Assembly (NCBI GenBank): GCA_018819925.1 | Contig: JAHJPG010000017.1 | Coordinates: 1 to 50,524, forward strand | DNA from: Pseudomonadota bacterium | Lineage (GTDB): Bacteria; Desulfobacterota; Desulfarculia; Desulfarculales; Desulfarculaceae | Length of the DNA: 50,524 bases | Direction of reading: 5' to 3' | Shown here: positions 5,051 to 48,226 of the stretch, piece after piece | How the letters are laid out: each line of letters starts with the position of its first letter | Position numbering within the stretch: the first letter of the stretch is position 1 | Position numbers and translations under genes: made by a program | Notes under the pieces: generated by a model | Database searches by the model: none | Seen by the model: only the letters and a program-made list of their open reading frames with translations | What the model was told of the DNA's origin: nothing

Positions 5051-7612
5051 ATGAGAGAATCCTCCGTTAGCCCGGAAATGGCGGATAAAAGCAAGCTCTA
5101 CCTGGGCCTGGACGTTGGCTCGGTCAGCTTGGACACGGTGGTGCTGGACGCTGACGGCCAGATGCTTTTGGCCGAATACACCCGCACCCGGGGCCGGCCC
5201 CTGGCCGTGGCCGCCGAGGTGCTGGGCCGGGTCCTGGAGCGCTTTGGCCGGGAGTCCTTCGCCGCAGTGGCGGTCACCGGCAGCGGAGCCCCCACCGTGG
5301 CCCCTCTGTTGGGAGGGGAGGTGGTGAACGAGATCATCGCCGCCGCCCGGGGGGTGCAGCGGCTCTGCCCCCAGACCCACACCATCATCGACATGGGCGG
5401 CGAGGACGCCAAGCTGATCCTGGTGAGCCCCGGGTCCGGCGGCCAGTTGCGCATCGAAGACTTCGCCATGAACACCATGTGCGCGGCGGGCACCGGCTCC
5501 TTCTTGGACCAGCAGTCCCACCGGCTACAGCTGACCATCGAGCAGTTTTCCGAGATCGCCATGGGCAGCGCCAACCCGCCCCGCCTGGCCGGGCGTTGCT
5601 CTGTCTTCGCCAAGAGCGACATGATCCACTTGCAGCAGGAAGCCACCCCGGACTACGACATCGTGGCCGGCCTGTGCTTCGCCATGGCCCGCAACCTCAA
5701 GTCCAACATAGCCAAGGGCAAGAAGGTGGTGCCGCCGGTGGCCTTCATTGGAGGGGTGGCGGCCAACCAGGGGGTGCACCGGGCCCTCAAGGAGATCCTG
5801 GGCCTGGAGGAAGGCGAGCTGTTGGTTCCGCCGGATTTCGGCTGCGTGGGAGCCCTGGGCGCGGCCCTGTTCGTCCAGGACAAGGGCTTGGTTGCCCCTC
5901 TGGCCGGGCTGGAGGCCTTGGAGCAGCGAGCGGCCGAGACCGCCTCGGAAACCAAGCGGCTGCCCAGGCTCAAGCTGGGAGACCACCACCGCGACAAGGA
6001 CCTGCAAAAGATCCGGGTCCCGGAAGGACATCTGACCGGCTACCTGGGGGTGGACGTGGGCTCCATCTCCACCAACGTGGTGGTCATCGATGAAAAGGGC
6101 CGGGTGCTCTCCAAGCAATACCTGCTCACGGCGGGGCGCCCCCTGGAAGCGGTCAAGGAGGGCCTGCGCCTGGCCGGGGCCGAGATCGGCGACCGGGTGA
6201 CCATCCTGGGGGCGGGCACCACCGGCTCGGGCCGCTACCTCACCGCCGACTTCATCGGGGCGGACATCGTGCGCAACGAGATTACCGCCCAGGCCACCGC
6301 CGCCGCCCACATCGACCCGGAGGTGGACACCATCTTCGAGATCGGCGGCCAGGACTCCAAGTACATCTCCCTGGAAAACGGGGCCATCGTCGATTTCATG
6401 ATGAACAAGGTCTGCGCGGCGGGCACCGGCAGCTTTCTGGAAGAGCAGGCGGAAAAGCTGGGCATTCAGATCAAGGACGAGTTCGGGGCCAGGGCCCTGG
6501 GCGCGCCCAACCCGGTGCGCATGGGCGAGCGCTGCACCGTGTTCATGGAGTCGGACCTGGTGTCGCACCAGGCCTCCGGGGCCGAGATAGACGACCTGGT
6601 GGGCGGACTGAGCTACTCCATCGTGCATAACTACTTGAACAAGGTGGTTGAGGACCGCAGGATCGGCAATCGCATCTTCTACCAGGGGGCCACGGCGGCC
6701 AACCAGGGCATAGTGGCCGCCTTCGAGGCGGTGACCGGCCGGCCCATCATCGTGCCGCCCCACCACGACGTCACCGGGGCCATCGGGGCGGCCCTGCTGT
6801 CCATGCGCGAGCGCACCTGGAAAGAGAGCTCCTTCAAGGGCTTCGCGGTGAGCAAGACCGGCTACGAGATCACCACCTTCGAGTGCTCCGGCTGCCCCAA
6901 CACCTGCTCCATCCGCAAGGTGAAGGTGGAGGGCCTGGCCAAGCCCTTGTTCTACGGCTCACGCTGTGAAAAATACGACGTGGACCGCGACAGCAAGGTG
7001 CGCGAGGACATCCCCGACCTGTTCGCCGAGCGCGAGGAGTTATTGCTGTCCTACGCGGGGCCGGTGGAACCGGGGCGCAAAAAAGGCGTGGTGGGCATTC
7101 CCCGCACCATGTTCTTTAGGGAGTGGTTGCCATTTTTCAGCGCCTTTTTGAACCGCCTGGGCTTTGAGGTGCGGGTCTCGGGCCCCAGCACCAAGCGCCT
7201 GATCCACAAAGGGGTGGAGGCGGTGGTCAACGAGCCCTGCTTCCCGGTGAAGGTGGCCCACGGCCACCTGGCCGAGCTTATCGAGGCCGGCTTGGATAAG
7301 ATTCTTTTGCCCTCCCTGATCAACGTGCCCGCTCCGGGCAACGAGCTGACCTACGGCCAAGTGTGCCCCTACGCCCAGACCCTGTGCTACACCGCCCCGG
7401 CGGCCCTGGACTTCGGCCAGAGCGAACTCATCGACACCCCCCTGCGTTTCGGCTACGACGCCGACACCATGCGCGGCGACCTCAAGGCCCTGGCCAAGCG
7501 TCTGGGGGCCGGTTCCCGGGGCTGGGCCAGGCCATCGCCGCCGGCTGGGAGGCCCAGCGCGACTTCAACCGCCGCCTGGTGGAGCGGGGCCGTGAGGTCT
7601 TGGCCTCCATGA
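5051..7612 (+). CDS. BcrA/BadF-type acyl-CoA reductase/dehydratase activase, N-terminal part (frameshifted)
   Basis: This frame encodes two tandem BcrA/D-type ATPase domains and the start of the DUF2229 region. Such proteins hydrolyse ATP to drive low-potential electrons into benzoyl-CoA reductase or 2-hydroxyacyl-CoA dehydratase systems. Domain 1 has LGLDVGSVSLD (residues 18-28), the cluster cysteine in MCAAGTGSF (about C144) and GRCSVFAKSD; domain 2 repeats these as DVGSIST (about 335), VCAAGTGSF (about C455) and ERCTVFMESD. A conserved IPRTMFFREWLPFF segment follows. Family-like sequence ends at GCC 7508-7510; after that this frame gives unrelated residues until 7612, while the expected protein continues in the -1 frame. 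The intact product would be about 1,400 residues, the normal size for the long form. Confidence 0.85.
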   Translation: MRESSVSPEMADKSKLYLGLDVGSVSLDTVVLDADGQMLLAEYTRTRGRPLAVAAEVLGRVLERFGRESFAAVAVTGSGAPTVAPLLGGEVVNEIIAAARGVQRLCPQTHTIIDMGGEDAKLILVSPGSGGQLRIEDFAMNTMCAAGTGSFLDQQSHRLQLTIEQFSEIAMGSANPPRLAGRCSVFAKSDMIHLQQEATPDYDIVAGLCFAMARNLKSNIAKGKKVVPPVAFIGGVAANQGVHRALKEILGLEEGELLVPPDFGCVGALGAALFVQDKGLVAPLAGLEALEQRAAETASETKRLPRLKLGDHHRDKDLQKIRVPEGHLTGYLGVDVGSISTNVVVIDEKGRVLSKQYLLTAGRPLEAVKEGLRLAGAEIGDRVTILGAGTTGSGRYLTADFIGADIVRNEITAQATAAAHIDPEVDTIFEIGGQDSKYISLENGAIVDFMMNKVCAAGTGSFLEEQAEKLGIQIKDEFGARALGAPNPVRMGERCTVFMESDLVSHQASGAEIDDLVGGLSYSIVHNYLNKVVEDRRIGNRIFYQGATAANQGIVAAFEAVTGRPIIVPPHHDVTGAIGAALLSMRERTWKESSFKGFAVSKTGYEITTFECSGCPNTCSIRKVKVEGLAKPLFYGSRCEKYDVDRDSKVREDIPDLFAEREELLLSYAGPVEPGRKKGVVGIPRTMFFREWLPFFSAFLNRLGFEVRVSGPSTKRLIHKGVEAVVNEPCFPVKVAHGHLAELIEAGLDKILLPSLINVPAPGNELTYGQVCPYAQTLCYTAPAALDFGQSELIDTPLRFGYDADTMRGDLKALAKRLGAGSRGWARPSPPAGRPSATSTAAWWSGAVRSWPP

Positions 7613-36994: not shown

Positions 36995-38233
36995 ATGGGC
37001 CAAACCATACTGGTCGTCGGCGGGGGCATGAGCGGCGTCAGCGCGGCGCTGGAAGCGGCCGAAGCCGGCTATGACGTAGTGCTGGTGGAGAAAAATCCTT
37101 ATCTCGGCGGCCGGGTGGCCCAGCTCCACCAATACTTCCCCAAACTCTGCCCGCCCTACTGCGGGTTGGAGATCAACTTCAAGCGCATAAAGTCCAACCC
37201 GCGCATCAAGCTCTACACCATGAGCGAGGTGACGGGCATCGAGGGCGGGCCGGGCAGCTACAAGGTGACAATCAACCAGCTGCCCCGCTACGTCAACGAG
37301 CGCTGCACCGTCTGCGGCAAGTGCGCCGATGCGGTGGAAACCACCATCCCCAACCCCTTTGACTACGGGCTGGGCACCATCAAGGCGGCCTACCTGCCCC
37401 ACGAACTGGCCTATCCCTTCCGCTACGTCATCGATCCCAGCATCGTGGAGACCGAGGACGGAGCCAAGGCCAAGGAGGCTTGCCCCTACGACGCGGTGGT
37501 CCTGGACGATGCGGCCAAAGAAGTGACCGAGGAAGCCGGGGCCATTGTCTGGGCCGCCGGCTGGACCCCCTACGACGCCTCCAAGGTCGAGTACTACAAC
37601 TTCAACAGCAGCCCGGACATCATCACCAACGTGCAGATGGAGCGGCTGGCCACGGCGGGCGGCCCCACCGGCGGCAAGATCGTGAAACTGAGCAACGGCG
37701 AGGCCCCCAAAAAGGTGGCCTTCATTCAGTGCGCCGGAAGCCGGGACGTGAACCATCTGCCCTTCTGCTCCACCGTATGCTGCCTGGCCAGCCTGAAGCA
37801 GGCCACCTACGTGCGCGAGCAACTGCCCGAGGCCGAGGTGACCATCTACTTCATCGACATTCGGGCCATGGACCGCAACGAGGATTTCTATACCAAGGTA
37901 AAGGCCGACGAGAAGATCAGCTTCGTAAAGAGCAAGATCGGCCTTATCGAGCCCGGTGAGAACGGCGTGCTGGTGCTGGAGGGCGAGAACACCACCACCG
38001 GCGAACGCTTCAAGGCCGAACACGACATGGTGGTCTTGGCCACGGGCATGCAACCCAACACCGATTTGAGCAAGATTCCGGCCGATATGGTCTATGACGA
38101 GTACGGCTTCGTGCAGGCCGCCGAAGGCATCTTCGGCGCAGGCACGGTTCGCCGGCCTGGCGAGGTGCACGTAAGCGTGCAAGACGGAACGTCGGCGGCG
38201 CTCAAGGCTATACAAGTAGTGGCCGGGAGGTAG
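36995..38233 (+). CDS. qmoA: Quinone-interacting oxidoreductase subunit QmoA
   Basis: This 412-residue HdrA-like flavoprotein belongs to the Qmo complex that feeds electrons to APS reductase. It has an N-terminal FAD motif VVGGGMSGVSAALEAAEAG, the HdrA-type GGRVAQLHQYFPKLCPPYCG, a CTVCGKC site, and the IQCAGSRDVNHLPFCSTVCC segment. The length equals that of characterised QmoA proteins. It is cytoplasmic. The stop overlaps the region of the qmoB ribosome site, giving close coupling. Confidence 0.95.
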   Translation: MGQTILVVGGGMSGVSAALEAAEAGYDVVLVEKNPYLGGRVAQLHQYFPKLCPPYCGLEINFKRIKSNPRIKLYTMSEVTGIEGGPGSYKVTINQLPRYVNERCTVCGKCADAVETTIPNPFDYGLGTIKAAYLPHELAYPFRYVIDPSIVETEDGAKAKEACPYDAVVLDDAAKEVTEEAGAIVWAAGWTPYDASKVEYYNFNSSPDIITNVQMERLATAGGPTGGKIVKLSNGEAPKKVAFIQCAGSRDVNHLPFCSTVCCLASLKQATYVREQLPEAEVTIYFIDIRAMDRNEDFYTKVKADEKISFVKSKIGLIEPGENGVLVLEGENTTTGERFKAEHDMVVLATGMQPNTDLSKIPADMVYDEYGFVQAAEGIFGAGTVRRPGEVHVSVQDGTSAALKAIQVVAGR

Positions 38234-38238
38234 TGATC

Positions 38239-40467
38239 ATGGATAAGAACCAAGCGTGCTATCTCTGCAAGGGCTGCGGCCTCGGCGAGGCCCTGGATTT
38301 TGACAACCTCGAGGAAGTCCTGGGTGAGTCCGGTATCAGCGAGGTTAAAACCCACGACGCCCTGTGCTCTCCCGATGGCGTGGCCCTGATCCAGGGCGAC
38401 GTGGACGGTGGGGTCAACGCCATGCTCATCGGGGCCTGCTCCTCGCGGGTCAAGAGTGATGAGTTCAACTTCGGCTCCCAGGTGATCGTGGAGCGGGCCA
38501 GCCTGCGCGAGCAGGTCCTTTACTGCTCCGAGGCCGAGTACGAGGGCGAGGAAGAGGCCGGCGAGGACCGCCAGATGCTGGCGGCGGACTACCTGCGCAT
38601 GAGCGCGGTGAAGCTGGCCAAGTCCAACGTGCCCGTGCCCTTCAAGCTGGAGCTGGAGCCCGAGACCGCCCTGTTGGTGGTGGGCGGCGGCGTGGCCGGC
38701 ATCAACGCGGCCCTGGCTGCGGCCAAGGCCGGCGTCCAGGTGTTCCTGGTGGAAAAGGAAGCGGAGTTGGGCGGCTTCTTGGTCAAGATGGCCAAGCTGG
38801 CCCCGGAGAGCCCGCCCTACCAGGAGCTGGAGGACACCGGCCTGGAAGAGCTGGTGGCCCAGGTGGAAGCCGACGACAAGATAAAGGTCTACACCGGCAC
38901 CACCGTGGACAAGACCGAAGGCGCTCCCGGCAACTTCACCATTGCCCTCTCCGGCGGCGACACCTTGCGTTGCGGCGCCATCGTGCAGGCCACCGGCTGG
39001 CTGCCCTACGAGGCCGAGAAGCTGGCCGAGGAGCTGGCCTACGGCTCCAATCCGGGCATCATCACCAACGTGGACATGGAAGCCAAGGCCAAGGCCGGCG
39101 ATCTGGGCGGCCTGAACGGCGTGGCCTTCATTCAATGCGCCGGCAGCCGCGACCAAAACCACCTGCCCTACTGCTCGGCGGTATGCTGCACCGTGAGCCT
39201 CAAGCAGGCCATGATGGTCAAGGAGGCCAACCCCGAGGCGGCGGTCTACGTCATCTACAAGGACATCCGCACCCCCGGCCAGAGCGAGGAAGTGTACCGC
39301 GAGGCCCAGCGCAAGGGCGTGGTGTTCATTCGCCGCGACGAGGACTACCCCAAGATCAGCGAGTCCGGCGGCAAGCTGGCCATCGAGACCAAGGACATGA
39401 CTCTCAACGACACCGTTGAGATCGATGAGCTGGACATGGTGGTGTTGGCCACGGGTCTTAAGCCCAACAACCCCAAGGTGGTGGACGCGCCCCTGGTGGC
39501 CCTGGGCATGGACCAGGAAGCAGCCAAGAAGCTGGCCGCCGAGTCCAAGGCGCAGTGCGACAGCTGGTCGGTGCTCAACCTGCAGTACCGCCAGGGACCC
39601 AACCTGCCCACTCTGAAGTACGCCTATCCCGACAGCCACTTCATCTGCTTCCCCTACGAGACCCGGCGCACCGGCATCTACGCGGCGGGCGCCGTGCGCC
39701 GTCCCATGCGGGTGAGCCAGGCGGTGGAAGACGCAACCGGCGCGGCGCTCAAGGCCATCCAGGCCGCCCACGCGGCGGCGGAGGGCGTGGCGGTGCATCC
39801 GCGCAGCGGCGACATGAGCTTCCCCGAGTTCGCCATGCAGCGTTGCACCCAGTGTAAGCGCTGCACCGAGGAGTGCCCCTTCGGGGCCATCAACGAGGAC
39901 GAGAAGGCCAACCCCCTGCCCAACCCCACCCGCTGCCGCCGCTGCGGCGTGTGCATGGGCGCCTGCCCCGAGCGCATCATCAGCTTCAAGAACTACTCCG
40001 TGGACATGATCGGCTCCATGATCAAGTCCATCGACGTGCCCGAAGAGGATGAGGAGAAGCCCCGGGTCATCGTACTCACCTGCGAGAACGACGCCCTGCC
40101 GGCCATCGACTTGGCTGCGCGCAAGGGCCACAAGTGGAGCCCCTACGTACGCTTCATTCCGGTGCGCTGCCTGGGCTCGATCAACCTGGTATGGATCGCC
40201 GACGCCCTGTCTTCGGGCATCGACGGCGTGATGCTCTTCGGCTGCCGTCACGGCGACGACTACCAATGCCACTTCATCAAGGGTTCGGAGCTGGCCAACG
40301 TGCGCATGTCCAAGATTTCCGAGACCCTGGACCGCTTGGTGCTGGAAAGCGACCGGGTGCGGGTCGAGGAAATCAGCTTCAACGAGGTTGACCGCATCCC
40401 CGAGATCATCAGCGAGTTCATGGAAACCATCGAGGAAGTGGGACCCAACCCCTACAAGGGCTTCTAG
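38239..40467 (+). CDS. qmoB: Quinone-interacting oxidoreductase subunit QmoB
   Basis: This 742-residue protein combines an HdrA-like flavin domain with extra electron-transfer modules. After an N-terminal CYLCKGCGLGEAL stretch and a flavin motif VVGGGVAGINAALAAAKAG come CAGSRDQNHLPYCSAVCC, two 4Fe-4S sites (CTQCKRCTEECPFG and CRRCGVCMGACPE), and a C-terminal MvhD/FlpD-like domain (VRCLGSINLVWIADAL, GCRHGDDYQC). The ATG at 38239 is preferred to a GTG at 38233 because GGGAGG at 38225-38230 has proper spacing only to the former. With QmoA it forms the cytoplasmic module that contacts AprBA. Confidence 0.95.
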   Translation: MDKNQACYLCKGCGLGEALDFDNLEEVLGESGISEVKTHDALCSPDGVALIQGDVDGGVNAMLIGACSSRVKSDEFNFGSQVIVERASLREQVLYCSEAEYEGEEEAGEDRQMLAADYLRMSAVKLAKSNVPVPFKLELEPETALLVVGGGVAGINAALAAAKAGVQVFLVEKEAELGGFLVKMAKLAPESPPYQELEDTGLEELVAQVEADDKIKVYTGTTVDKTEGAPGNFTIALSGGDTLRCGAIVQATGWLPYEAEKLAEELAYGSNPGIITNVDMEAKAKAGDLGGLNGVAFIQCAGSRDQNHLPYCSAVCCTVSLKQAMMVKEANPEAAVYVIYKDIRTPGQSEEVYREAQRKGVVFIRRDEDYPKISESGGKLAIETKDMTLNDTVEIDELDMVVLATGLKPNNPKVVDAPLVALGMDQEAAKKLAAESKAQCDSWSVLNLQYRQGPNLPTLKYAYPDSHFICFPYETRRTGIYAAGAVRRPMRVSQAVEDATGAALKAIQAAHAAAEGVAVHPRSGDMSFPEFAMQRCTQCKRCTEECPFGAINEDEKANPLPNPTRCRRCGVCMGACPERIISFKNYSVDMIGSMIKSIDVPEEDEEKPRVIVLTCENDALPAIDLAARKGHKWSPYVRFIPVRCLGSINLVWIADALSSGIDGVMLFGCRHGDDYQCHFIKGSELANVRMSKISETLDRLVLESDRVRVEEISFNEVDRIPEIISEFMETIEEVGPNPYKGF

Positions 40468-40473
40468 CTGAAA

Positions 40474-40503
40474 AAGGGGGCCTGCCGCAAGGTGGGCCCC
40501 CTT
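40474..40503 (+). promoter_or_regulatory. Stem-loop between qmoB and hdrC-like gene
   Basis: AAGGGGGCC at 40474-40482 pairs perfectly with GGCCCCCTT at 40495-40503. It begins 7 bp after the qmoB stop. No proper T-run follows, so read-through into the hdrC-like gene is likely, possibly at a lower level. Confidence 0.6.
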
Positions 40504-40558
40504 CACCTTATCGAGGTTTTACAATATTTCGTTTAACCGCTTTGCAGTGAGGATGCCA

Positions 40559-41161
40559 ATGGCCACCAAGGCCTACGACAAAAGCTTCCGCGAAGAGGTG
40601 TACCAGAACGTCGATTCGGGGGAAGACGTCAAACTCTGCATGCAATGCGGAGTTTGCGGCATCACCTGCCCTCTGCGCGGGGAGATGACCCACGGTCCCC
40701 GTCAACTCTGGGCCCTCATCCGTGCCGGCAAACGCGATGAGGTGATGAACAGCCCCGACATCATGCTGTGCACCTCCTGCTATTCCTGCAAGGTTCGCTG
40801 CCCCCGGGGGGTCAAGGTCATCGACGTGATGCATGGCCTGGCCCACTACGCCCTTGAGCAGGGCATCGTGCCGCGCAAGGAAACCGCCAAGTTCGGCAAG
40901 GTCTTCTGGAACAGCATCTACAAGACCGGCCGGGTTGACGAAACCGAAGTGCCCATGCGCTACACCATGATGGCCGGCCCGGTGCATGGCATCTTCGCCA
41001 TGTTGGAGATGATGGACATCGGCCGCGCCTTGCTTTCCCACAAGCGCATGAAGTTCAAGCTGGGCCCCGGCCTGCCCCCCTCCAAGAAGATCAAGGGCAT
41101 CAGGGGGCTGAAGAAGATGCTGGACAAGGCGGCCGCCATGAGCCCGGGAAAGGAGGGTTAA
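40559..41161 (+). CDS. hdrC: Heterodisulfide reductase subunit C-like iron-sulfur protein
   Basis: This 200-residue soluble protein has the two 4Fe-4S sites of HdrC: CMQCGVCGITCPL and CTSCYSCKVRCPRG, followed by a helical HdrC-type region. It has no membrane segments, unlike QmoC, which joins HdrC-like and cytochrome-b-like parts. The ATG at 40559 is chosen over GTG 40547 and ATG 40553 because GTGAGG stands at the right distance only from it. It is 1 bp from hdrB. In this place it probably links QmoAB to a thiol/disulfide or ferredoxin pool through HdrB. Confidence 0.92.
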   Translation: MATKAYDKSFREEVYQNVDSGEDVKLCMQCGVCGITCPLRGEMTHGPRQLWALIRAGKRDEVMNSPDIMLCTSCYSCKVRCPRGVKVIDVMHGLAHYALEQGIVPRKETAKFGKVFWNSIYKTGRVDETEVPMRYTMMAGPVHGIFAMLEMMDIGRALLSHKRMKFKLGPGLPPSKKIKGIRGLKKMLDKAAAMSPGKEG

Positions 41162-41162
41162 G

Positions 41163-42041
41163 ATGACTTACTTCCTATACCCCGGATGCTCCCTGGAGGC
41201 TGGAGGCTCCCATTACCTGGTGAGCGTGGAGGCCGTGGCCAAGGCCCTGGGCCTGCAACTCAAGGAGATCAATGACTGGAACTGCTGCGGCGCCTCCATC
41301 CACTATGTGGGCGGCACCGAGTTGCAGACCAAGACCCTCAATGCCCGCAACCTGGCCTTGGCCCAGAAGCAGGGCGGCTATGACATCATCGCCCCTTGCT
41401 CCTCCTGCTACATCCAGATGATAAAGGCCGCCCATGAGTTTGAGGACGAACCCGAGTTGGCCGCCCAGTTGAACCAGATTTTGGCCGAGGGCGGGCTGAA
41501 CTACACCGGCGGGGTCAAGGTGCGCCACGTCCTGGACGTGCTGTACAACGACCTGGGCCTGGAGCGCATCGCTGCGGGGGTTAAAAAACCCCTGACCGGA
41601 CTCAAGGTGGCCGCCTACTACGGCTGCCAGACCACCCGGCCCTACGGCGAATACGACTCGGTGGAATATCCCCACACCATGGACGATATCCTCGAGGCCC
41701 TGGGGGCCGAGGTGGTGCCCTTTGAACACAAGGCCAAGTGCTGCGGTTCGGGCATCTTCTTCACCGAGATGGAGACTTGCGCTCCCCTGGCTGGCGGCAT
41801 CCTGGGCGAGGCCGCCGAGCAAGGCGCCGACCTCATCGTCACCGCCTGCCCCATGTGCCAGATGAACCTGGAAATCTACCAGCCCCGGCTCAACAAGATG
41901 CTGGGGACCGAGTACGACATGCCGGTGGTTTTCGTGACCCAGTTGATGGCCCTGGCCTTTGGCGGCGACTTCAAGAAAGACGCCGCCCTGGACCGGAACA
42001 TCGTTTCTGCGGCCGAGGTGTTGAAAAAAGCTGCTGCGTGA
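41163..42041 (+). CDS. hdrB: Heterodisulfide reductase subunit B-like protein
   Basis: This 292-residue protein has both CCG domains that bind the unusual noncubane 4Fe-4S clusters used in HdrB: NCCGAS...PCSSCY in the first half and KCCGSG...CPMCQMN in the second. The YPGCSLE start and YGCQTTRP segment match catalytic HdrB. All cluster cysteines appear present, so it may carry out disulfide reduction or oxidation and not only electron transfer. It is cytoplasmic and lacks any membrane anchor. A GC-rich hairpin follows 24 bp after its stop. Confidence 0.93.
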   Translation: MTYFLYPGCSLEAGGSHYLVSVEAVAKALGLQLKEINDWNCCGASIHYVGGTELQTKTLNARNLALAQKQGGYDIIAPCSSCYIQMIKAAHEFEDEPELAAQLNQILAEGGLNYTGGVKVRHVLDVLYNDLGLERIAAGVKKPLTGLKVAAYYGCQTTRPYGEYDSVEYPHTMDDILEALGAEVVPFEHKAKCCGSGIFFTEMETCAPLAGGILGEAAEQGADLIVTACPMCQMNLEIYQPRLNKMLGTEYDMPVVFVTQLMALAFGGDFKKDAALDRNIVSAAEVLKKAAA

Positions 42042-42446: not shown

Positions 42447-43196
42447 ATGGACCTCACTGATATAGGACGCAACGACCCCTGCCCCTGCGGGAGCGGCAAA
42501 AAGTTCAAGCGCTGCCACATGGGGCGTGAAAAAGACCTGGTCACCGACCGTTTGGTTCAGGACCCCGGCCAGATCGCCCTGGCCATAACCAAGCTTCCGG
42601 CCTGCGATCATCCCCGCGCTGCGGAAATGACGGCGGATTTTTCGCTTACTTCCCCGGCGGGCAAAAAAGTGACCATCAAGCTGGTGGATCTGGCCGCCTA
42701 CGCCAAACTGCAAGCCGGAGCCAGCGACGCTCCCCGTTCAACCTCGGGCGGGGTGCTCATCAACCCCCAGAAGACCCGGGTGCTGGACCCAACCCATCTT
42801 TACCTGGCGCTCAGTCCCGACGCCGACGACTCCCTTATCATCCACCAACTGGCCCACGCCGCCGATCTGATATGCGGCTCCTCATTGCCGCCGGGCAAGG
42901 CCGCGGCCCTGTCCCGGGAAACCAACCTGCCGTTGGAGTTGTTGGAGCATCCCCAGGAGTTCGGTGAAAAGCTCATGGAACTGTCAGAGCGCTTTGGGGT
43001 GGAGTTGGACGCCGAGGACGAGATCGTGGCTTTTTTGACTCACCGCAAGATGCTCTTGCCCGGCCGGCTGGTGGCGGGGGGCAACAGCACCGAACTGGTG
43101 GCTGCCGGGGAAAAGACCCTGCGCCTGCTGCAAGACTCCAAGGATGAGATCAACGCGCGCATCAGGAACCGGGCGGGCTACACCGGCGGCAAATAG
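42447..43196 (+). CDS. SEC-C motif protein
   Basis: This 249-residue protein begins with a zinc-binding SEC-C motif, [15 protein letters not shown] (residues about 10-24), the same type found at the SecA tail. The remainder has no recognised catalytic pattern; [13 protein letters not shown] near the centre contains His and Cys that could also bind metal. It is 37 bp after the zinc-ribbon gene and before a clear terminator, so it ends that small operon. The SEC-C part is certain; the role is unknown. Confidence 0.8.
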
Positions 43197-43231
43197 GCGC
43201 GGCGCACAGCGGGCTTCTGGGGCCACTGACG

Positions 43232-43263
43232 AGGGCGGGGATGATCCCCCGCCCTTTGTTTTT
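43232..43263 (+). terminator. Rho-independent terminator after the SEC-C gene
   Basis: AGGGCGGGG at 43232-43240 pairs with CCCCGCCCT at 43247-43255 over 6 nt, followed by a T-rich run, TTGTTTTTT. Confidence 0.9.
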
Positions 43264-43310
43264 TGGTAAGGTGGGAGGGTGGGAAAAAACAGAGAGAGGG
43301 GGGATTTGCT

Positions 43311-44240
43311 ATGTCTACCGTTTATCTGTTGGGAGCAGGCTTCACCCACGCAGTGCTTGGGAATGTCGCGCCTCTGAACGATGAGGTTATAGGCAGGCTC
43401 AAATTGAGGAAATATTCAGAGCTGGAAACCGAATACGGGCAAGCTAACCCGAGCATCGAGCAATTTTTGACCTTGTTGGACTTAAAGCTGGCTCGTGCCG
43501 AGCAGCGAAAATATATCGGTACTAGCCGCCTTAGAAAAATTCGCAAGAAAATCATTGAAAGAATTGTCGATGTTTTTAGCTACGAGCGCCTTTACATTGA
43601 TGATCTAGACCAGAAAGAAGTTTTAAAAAAATTTGTTTTAAGCCTTCCAACTCCGGCCCTAATCCTTACACTAAATTATGACTGTGTATTAGATCAAGCC
43701 TTGTGGTACAGCGGACGCTGGTCGCCTTATGATGGATATGGGATTCGTGTCCCTTCGGATGAGGAAGAACTGTCCACAAAAAATATCAGGCTGTTCAAAC
43801 TGCACGGATCGGTAAATTTTAAGGAACGGTCAGATGACCAGGAATATCCCTTTGTTGAAATAAATAACAAGCTGTTCCCTGGGGCTTTTAGTGAAAGGAA
43901 TAAAAGGGGATCTTCGCACATCATTGCAATGAGCTACATAAAAGCATTCCGCAATGGCCTTATGAGGTTTTGGAGAGATGCTATCGTTGCCATGCGAGAA
44001 GCAGAACACTTAATTATCATAGGGTGCTCTCTCAGAGATGAAGATACCTTTTTAAGGTTTTTGCTTTACAATTTTGGCATGAAAAAATCGTGCGATACAT
44101 TCAAAATAGATATTGTAGATAAGGGCAAGAAAAACGCTAACGCGATCAAAAAGAAAGTGGAAGGGTTGGTCGCATGCCCAAAGTTGCAAAAAATTTCCAC
44201 ACATGACAAAGGCTTGGAGCACTATCTGAGTAACAAGTAG
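43311..44240 (+). CDS. SIR2-like domain protein, likely NADase and possible phage-defence gene
   Basis: This 309-residue protein has SIR2-type NAD-site motifs: YLLGAGFTHAV at the start, LTLNYDCVLDQAL, FKLHGSVNF, and IIIGCSLRDEDTF. This arrangement is found in SIR2-like domains of Thoeris, DSR and related antiphage systems, where they deplete NAD. The gene is AT-rich (24 of 60 bases are G or C at 43561-43620) and uses codons unlike its neighbours, a sign of transfer. No partner gene is seen next to it. The ATG at 43311 is chosen because GAGAGGGGGG precedes it. A housekeeping role is also possible. Confidence 0.8.
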   Translation: MSTVYLLGAGFTHAVLGNVAPLNDEVIGRLKLRKYSELETEYGQANPSIEQFLTLLDLKLARAEQRKYIGTSRLRKIRKKIIERIVDVFSYERLYIDDLDQKEVLKKFVLSLPTPALILTLNYDCVLDQALWYSGRWSPYDGYGIRVPSDEEELSTKNIRLFKLHGSVNFKERSDDQEYPFVEINNKLFPGAFSERNKRGSSHIIAMSYIKAFRNGLMRFWRDAIVAMREAEHLIIIGCSLRDEDTFLRFLLYNFGMKKSCDTFKIDIVDKGKKNANAIKKKVEGLVACPKLQKISTHDKGLEHYLSNK

Positions 44241-44313
44241 GAACTGCCCGTCTCTCTTTCATTCATAACTTCTTCCGTGCGGCTGCACGCTGGAACTTCC
44301 TACCCTCAAATTA

Positions 44314-44339
44314 AAACCGGCCCCGTGAAGGGCCGGTTT
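44314..44339 (-). terminator. Terminator between convergent genes
   Basis: AAACCGGCCC at 44314-44323 pairs perfectly with GGGCCGGTTT at 44330-44339. On the minus strand the stem is followed by TTTTAATTT, so it ends the 44362-45276 gene; it could also act weakly on the plus strand. Confidence 0.8.
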
Positions 44340-44361
44340 GCGTTGCACGAGACGCTTGCAC

Positions 44362-45276
44362 TCAGGCCAGGGGCGCGGGCGGGGGCGGCAGCTCGCCGCG
44401 CTCCTGGGCCTCTCGGGCCGCCTTGACCGGTATGCCGCTCTCGCAGGGCACCCCCACCTGGCACAGGCCGCAGCCGTAGCCGGTGAAGTTGTAGGTCTTG
44501 GCCACGTAGTCCCGGCTGCGCACCAGGTGCTCACGGCACTTTTCCTTGTCATGCCCGGCGGTGGTTATGGCCCGGGCCGGACAGCGGTCGATGCACTTGC
44601 CGCAGCTTCCGTCCACGAAAAAGCTGCAATAGGCGTGGTGGTCGTTGTAAGGCCGGGGGGTGGGCTCTATGGCCATGCGCACCACCACCGAGCCCACCCG
44701 CATGGCCTTGCCCTTGGCGGTGATGAGCCCGTCGCACAGGCCGAAGGTGCCCAGCCCGGCGGCGTGGGCCGCGTGGCGCTCGGACCAGGAGGAGGCGTAG
44801 CCGAAGCGCTGGGAATTGACGATGGTCCAGTTGGGCACCAGCATGGGGGCCACCGCCGGATACCCGGCCTTGGTCAGGCTGTCCTTCACGTGGTTGCGCA
44901 GGGCCGCGTTGCATTTTTCGCCAAAGATGCGGATGCGGGCCCATTCCTCGGCGGGGTATTTCTTGGCCCGGCGGTTGGCCAGGCGCACCATCTCCCGCTG
45001 GGGCAGCACCCAGGAGATTACGCTTAGTTCCCCGGCCGGGGCGGGCTGGCCCGGCTGGTGCTGGTTGTAGACCTCCCAGGGCGTCCAGTGGAAAGGCCCC
45101 ACGTATTCTTTATATTGCTGCCAGATGGGATCGCTTCCGGCGGCGAAACCCACCAAGGCCTGGTCCCAGGCCGGCTCGCCGGGCGGGTTGGCCATGTCGT
45201 TGGTGGGCGAGGAAGCCAGGAAGTCGTTGACCAGGCCGGTGATCCAGGTGCGGGGGTTGGCAATTTTCTTGGGCAT
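44362..45276 (-). CDS. Epoxyqueuosine reductase-like 4Fe-4S protein
   Basis: This 304-residue cytoplasmic protein has the C-terminal double-cluster signature of the QueG / reductive-dehalogenase group: CGKCIDRCPARAI and, further on, CGLCQVGVPCESG. The middle part (GLGTFGLCDGLIT and RVGSVVVRM) also fits the QueG-like fold. The full QueG N-terminus is not obvious, so it may not act in queuosine synthesis; many anaerobes have such paralogues of unknown role. It appears to be a single-gene unit with its own promoter (45333-45363) and terminator. Confidence 0.78.
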   Translation of the reverse strand: MPKKIANPRTWITGLVNDFLASSPTNDMANPPGEPAWDQALVGFAAGSDPIWQQYKEYVGPFHWTPWEVYNQHQPGQPAPAGELSVISWVLPQREMVRLANRRAKKYPAEEWARIRIFGEKCNAALRNHVKDSLTKAGYPAVAPMLVPNWTIVNSQRFGYASSWSERHAAHAAGLGTFGLCDGLITAKGKAMRVGSVVVRMAIEPTPRPYNDHHAYCSFFVDGSCGKCIDRCPARAITTAGHDKEKCREHLVRSRDYVAKTYNFTGYGCGLCQVGVPCESGIPVKAAREAQERGELPPPPAPLA

Positions 45277-48058: not shown

Positions 48059-48134
48059 GGGCCGTTAACTCAGTTGGTAGAGTATCTGCCTTTTAAGCAG
48101 AGAGTCGCGTGTTCGAATCACGCACGGCCCACCA
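48059..48134 (+). tRNA. tRNA-Lys (anticodon UUU)
   Basis: A full cloverleaf can be drawn: acceptor GGGCCGT pairs with ACGGCCC (48124-48130), the anticodon loop is CTTTTAA with anticodon TTT, and the T arm is GCGTG-TTCGAAT-CACGC. The CCA end is encoded at 48132-48134. Confidence 0.97.
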
Positions 48135-48148
48135 GTTTTGGTGGAAAC

Positions 48149-48226
<78 letters not shown>

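Follow-up and report, generated by a model that had tools for sequence, protein, structure and literature searches.

A lone, AT-rich SIR2_2 gene in a Desulfarculaceae genome as a candidate one-gene antiphage defence module

Why should a single AT-rich gene with SIR2 motifs stand in GC-rich chromosomal DNA, and is it a working defence gene or what is left of one? The gene lies in a stretch of 50,524 nucleotides (hereafter the window; GenBank assembly GCA_018819925.1, contig JAHJPG010000017.1), which is one whole contig of a 4.03-Mb draft genome (G000) of a bacterium placed in the Desulfarculaceae, with a completeness of 96% and a contamination of 3.9%.

An intact gene at a variable site

The gene (Table 1) encodes a protein that matches the Pfam family SIR2_2 (PF13289) with an E value of 1e-9 and 39.1 bits, against a Pfam cut-off of 24.5, and that contains no other Pfam domain at E values up to 1. 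The PADLOC models for SIR2 and for Argonaute-associated SIR2 also match it (E values of 9e-11 and 2e-8, respectively), and nothing in NCBIfam comes close to its cut-off. All four SIR2-type motifs that a preliminary description had attributed to the gene can be read in the protein. Two of them contain the residues that match the Asn-His dyad of SIR2 NADases, and these residues are invariant across an alignment of 35 rows, one of which is the window protein. No CxxC pair or other paired zinc-binding cysteines can be read in the protein, which places it apart from canonical sirtuins with their zinc module. The full-length homologues described below (one in genome G146, two in G214 and locus L022) are 318–328 amino acids long, and the window copy agrees with them in frame, length and active site. 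On these grounds the window copy is, as judged from sequence, an intact gene and not a remnant, as the preliminary description had thought possible.

Table 1. Features of the SIR2_2 locus (positions in the window)
Feature	Position	Strand	Remarks
SEC-C motif protein, left neighbour	42447..43196	+	close orthologue in G003–G007, five of the seven congeneric genomes
Intrinsic terminator of upstream SEC-C gene	43231..43266	+	stem 43231–43256, T-rich tail; from terminator scan; also in G004 empty site
Segment present here, missing at matching G004 site	43266..44301	.	from alignment to 158-bp site; ends uncertain by several bases
SIR2_2-domain gene	43311..44240	+	ATG to TAG, 309 amino acids, single domain, frame intact
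GAGFT nucleotide-binding motif	43332..43346	+	residues 8–12
LNYD motif	43671..43682	+	residues 121–124; dyad Asn122
LHGS motif	43800..43811	+	residues 164–167; dyad His165
GCSLRDED motif	44022..44045	+	residues 238–245
Downstream hairpin	44314..44339	-	perfect 10-bp inverted repeat; T-run on minus strand; also in G004 empty site
4Fe-4S protein, right neighbour	44362..45276	-	close orthologue in the same 5 of 7 congeneric genomes

As previously noted, the base composition of the gene is far from that of its surroundings, with a GC content of 0.423 compared with 0.638 for the window; sliding 930-bp stretches had a mean of 0.639 (s.d. 0.046), and the minimum outside the gene was 0.495. Neither of the two directly adjoining genes encodes a TIR, HerA, STAND or Argonaute protein, which bears out the earlier view of a lone gene. 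The call of a 4Fe-4S protein on the right scores 28.9 bits, slightly below the cut-off of 30, and by our reading of its sequence this protein is probably epoxyqueuosine reductase-like. Further to the left, at 38233–42041, the translations read as a row of HdrA/HdrC/HdrB-like redox genes.

A terminator had also been proposed on each side of the gene. The positions were right, but the right-hand hairpin is a poor plus-strand terminator for the SIR2_2 gene; with its T-run on the minus strand it probably serves the converging 4Fe-4S gene, and it was missing from the sites returned by our terminator scan. That scan found 3 terminator-like sites compared with 2.1 ± 1.5 in shuffled sequences, a count that is in itself at chance level. 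The left-hand terminator ends 45 bp upstream of the SIR2_2 start codon, and within those 45 bp (43266–43310) we found no sigma-70-like promoter; scanning 43000–44600 yielded one promoter-like site, inside the gene, with 1.1 expected by chance. Expression of the gene may depend on read-through of the terminator or on an atypical promoter.

We compared this site with those of relatives. Both neighbours have their orthologues on one contig in four of the five congeneric genomes that carry them (G004–G007), and a SIR2 gene lies between them in none of the four, contrary to what would be expected of a gene held at this locus by all relatives. In the nearest relative, G004, whose neighbour proteins are 90% and 94% identical to those of the window, the two genes are 158 bp apart with no gene between them. 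Because both hairpins are kept at this empty site, they did not arrive with the SIR2_2 gene. The two sequences together indicate that ~1.04 kb was either gained in G000 or lost in G004. In G005, G006 and G007 the gap is 1.2–2.3 kb and holds other ORFs with a GC content near that of the genome. One gap ORF may, to judge by a motif, encode a CDGSH iron-sulfur protein; it was found in G003, G005, G006 and G007 and was absent from G000, G001, G002 and G004, and three of its four matches were flagged with internal stops, yet open frames of 242 and 237 amino acids are present in G006 and G007, respectively. With 158 bp in G004, the SIR2 gene here and other ORFs in G005–G007, the intergenic place at 43196–44362 is variable in the genus. 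In one simple order of events, G000 and G004 shared a loss and the insertion followed in G000; the alternative order, in which the SIR2 gene was lost from G004, is also conceivable. Elsewhere in its genome G004 has two other, longer SIR2_2 frames (L101 and L107, with open frames of 884 and 599 amino acids), and different SIR2 genes thus occur within the genus.

Signs of a carrier were sparse. The alignment with the G004 empty site revealed no target-site duplication, and as candidate terminal inverted repeats we found only pairs of 11–12 nt with mismatches spanning the ends, which we considered unconvincing. The window protein had no match in 72,556 plasmid records, 50,697 phage records or a viral-contig collection; a search with the alignment returned one distant viral-contig match. 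A tRNA-Lys/tRNA-Glu pair lies at 48059–48226, ~4 kb from the SIR2_2 gene, and the clade locus L018 also sits behind a pair of this type, but we rejected tRNA targeting because no tRNA gene was found in L015, L016 or L017 (L022 and L023 fell outside the scan).

Sporadic homologues and a clade of seven

We found a close homologue in none of the seven congeneric genomes. In the relatives search, which covered 59 genomes besides that of the window, two genomes matched weakly, at 31% and 23% identity, and none closely. In a sample of the phylum, 11 of 395 genomes had a match, the window's own counted, and close full or partial homologues (44–46% identity) were present in 3 of the 394 others (G146, G214 and G168), with a second homologue at 34% identity in G214. 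At E values up to 1e-10, G214 itself was the only matching genome among the 17 of its class, and 3 of the 63 genomes in the class of G146 matched, strongly in G146 only; the four genus mates of G146 that we searched had no match.

Scanning a genome collection with a five-row alignment identified 38 loci, mostly of distant SIR2_2 proteins. In a maximum-likelihood tree of 35 of 42 sequences (seven fragments or over-long frames were left out, and L023 was kept), seven proteins formed one group with support of 100/99: the window protein, L015 (from G146), L020 and L021 (which we take to be the two G214 copies), the fragment L006 (from G168), L022 and L023. The six other proteins come from five further genomes and from unrelated genomic places. 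When the seven loci were compared all against all (227 ORFs of at least 80 amino acids in 86.8 kb, with a contig end hiding one side in G168 and L023), the only ORF common to any two of them was the SIR2 gene, and the same comparison over 39 collection loci found no recurring neighbour near the four clade members that these loci include. The Pfam and PADLOC domain scans covered 78 of 79 neighbours (a short ORF was omitted), at most two per side at 22 of the 39 loci. The commonest neighbour families among those listed (25 of 86 and 25 of 185) were restriction genes, in two to three members, and a rare partner could have gone unnoticed among the families beyond those listed.

The annotated neighbours of the clade include chemotaxis, purine-synthesis, polyamine and DNA-glycosylase genes. 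G146 differs, its homologue lying in a small cluster (L015, 6826–10550) with ORF6N, Fic and PIN-domain genes; among the homologue loci that we read, this is the only one resembling a small defence or toxin cluster, the others having ordinary annotated neighbours. In a separate SIR2_2 group outside the clade, L026 and L029 have related small ORFs (7251–7589 and 5643–6032, respectively) that precede the SIR2 gene by 28 bp and may be its partner.

All six clade genes measured (G168 was left out) are more AT-rich than their flanks, by 0.01–0.02 in GC content for the two G214 genes and by 0.06 to 0.20 for the others. In two of the seven members the start is damaged or missing. The fragment L006 has an in-frame stop just 5′ of the first motif, its other end being cut by the contig end, and in L023 the GAGFT motif is absent from the three forward frames of the first 330 bases, the contig starting 67 bp before the frame. 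These two members, together with the lack of a promoter found 5′ of the window gene, would fit a passenger that is selfish or in decay and now serves no function, but the window copy is full length with all of its motifs in place, and we consider a functionless passenger improbable.

Predicted structure and likely role

We modelled the window protein with AlphaFold, using as input 26 SIR2_2 sequences (the window protein and those of 25 of the 39 fetched loci, hand-picked for length and spread, with L023 kept). The model (pLDDT 85.9, pTM 0.88) has a SIR2 fold across its whole length. Its best fold matches were nine SIR2 chains of SIR2-HerA entries, with Z scores of 17.2–19.8, the top one aligning at 3.3 Å over 270 residues, and the fold is thus like that of the SIR2 subunit; the title of the top entry is 'trimeric HerA', and SIR2 family protein is the name given to its chains. 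The next scores belonged to KomC (15.6), ThsA (15.0) and SPARSA (14.9). Canonical sirtuins reached 14.6, tied with these three and above some ThsA, SPARSA and DSR2 matches (13.5–14.2), and the fold ranking therefore clearly favours defence enzymes only for SIR2-HerA. Foldseek likewise placed SIR2-HerA first and a canonical sirtuin next. Profile searches gave SIR2-HerA proteins followed by human FAM118B when a wide alignment was used, and a SIR2-HerA protein as the sole such protein found (E value of 6e-5) when a narrow one was used; FAM118B was not among the best 50 fold matches of either structure search. Best matches to non-defence SIR2-like proteins would have counted against the earlier proposal of a defence gene, and in both the PADLOC and the structure searches the best matches were defence SIR2 proteins.

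These results leave some room for an NAD-dependent enzyme outside defence, such as a sirtuin that modifies proteins or acts in regulation, or an enzyme producing a cyclic ADP-ribose signal, in that fold and dyad are as in canonical sirtuins, whose fold scores are tied with those of most defence SIR2 proteins. Such an enzyme is nevertheless unlikely here, because the protein lacks the paired zinc-binding cysteines of the module that, according to one study (PMC12700824), canonical sirtuins require for deacetylation, and because scattered presence and foreign composition are ill-suited to a housekeeping role. The prominence of the SIR2 protein of SIR2-HerA, at the top of both the profile and the fold matches, would also be explained if the gene were the SIR2 half of a Nezha-like pair that has lost its HerA-type partner and is now either idle or switched by an ATPase in trans. 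We doubt this as well: recent loss at each of the seven clade loci is at odds with the absence of any neighbour common to two of them (one-sided for G168 and L023), and the window protein is ~70–120 amino acids shorter than the solved SIR2-HerA proteins.

Taken together, the SIR2_2 family, the fold and the sporadic spread make a defence module the likeliest role. FAM118 proteins, which are SIR2_2 proteins lacking the zinc module, process NAD as filaments (PMC12700824), and two further studies report that mutation of the matching dyad leaves SPARSA without NADase activity (PMC10781750) and Nezha without immunity (PMC11559045). From these precedents and the invariance of the dyad we infer a NADase in abortive defence. 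We therefore favour, at a probability of roughly 60%, the reading that the gene was acquired horizontally, is intact and encodes a SIR2_2 NADase working as a one-gene system, most likely in abortive antiphage defence, with its function argued from homology to a family known chiefly from defence. The window protein would bind NAD, infection would trigger cleavage of the NAD by the Asn122/His165 dyad, and growth of the cell would stop before the phage matures. As to the switch, we conjecture that it may lie in how the protein itself assembles, or in its directly contacting some component of the phage or the host, these being the likeliest for a protein with essentially one SIR2 domain, no recognised sensor domain and no adjoining partner.

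More tentatively, the seven-member clade might constitute a distinct minimal SIR2 defence system that consists of a single gene with a single catalytic domain and has neither sensor nor partner. A protein of 309 amino acids would then sense, switch and cleave NAD by itself, with its activity set by its assembly, making it a bacterial counterpart of the bare human FAM118 proteins. Among open-licence literature (titles and the openings of abstracts), we found no description of this clade. The gene belongs to the known SIR2_2 kind, and its lone, sensor-less architecture is the one point of interest: a bare SIR2 clade that travels alone would make it possible to ask how little suffices for NAD to be cleaved in response to infection. 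Comparing the occupied and the empty insertion site would likewise make it possible to ask how modules of one gene come into chromosomes with no visible mobile element.

Comparison with known SIR2 systems

The SIR2 defence enzymes with which we compared the window protein (SIR2-HerA, KomC, ThsA, DSR2 and SPARSA) all have a further domain or partner. The SIR2 protein of SIR2-HerA (Nezha, GAO_19) resembles the window protein in its whole-length SIR2_2 fold and in its Asn-His dyad; it differs in size (381–428 amino acids for the solved proteins, compared with 309), in sequence (15–17% identity) and in its gene context, as the window gene adjoins SEC-C and 4Fe-4S genes and no HerA ATPase gene. Dyad and fold are also common to the window protein and the Sir2-APAZ protein of SPARSA (Aga_SIR2 in PADLOC), but the window protein has neither an APAZ domain nor an Argonaute neighbour. 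The C-terminal SLOG domain of Thoeris ThsA is absent from the window protein, which is also shorter than the solved ThsA-type chains (476–497 amino acids), and so is the long C-terminal region of DSR2, whose solved chains have 1004–1005 residues.

PDC-S21 is a PADLOC candidate family of 336 positions, the 'S' presumably denoting a single-gene candidate; among ten homologues scanned, L015 matches it with an E value of 3.8e-8 and L022 weakly (0.003), and the window protein itself does not match at E values up to 1. KomC, of the KomBC system (which we take to be the one named Kongming), is likewise small, consists of a single SIR2 domain and was deposited as a NADase, with Z scores of 15.0–15.6 to the window model; it was solved in complex with KomB, whereas the window gene has SEC-C and 4Fe-4S neighbours. 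Human FAM118B, finally, is a SIR2_2 protein that matches the profile of the window family, built from the wide alignment, with an E value of 1.4e-8; it is a vertebrate protein that is active together with FAM118A and as head-to-tail filaments.
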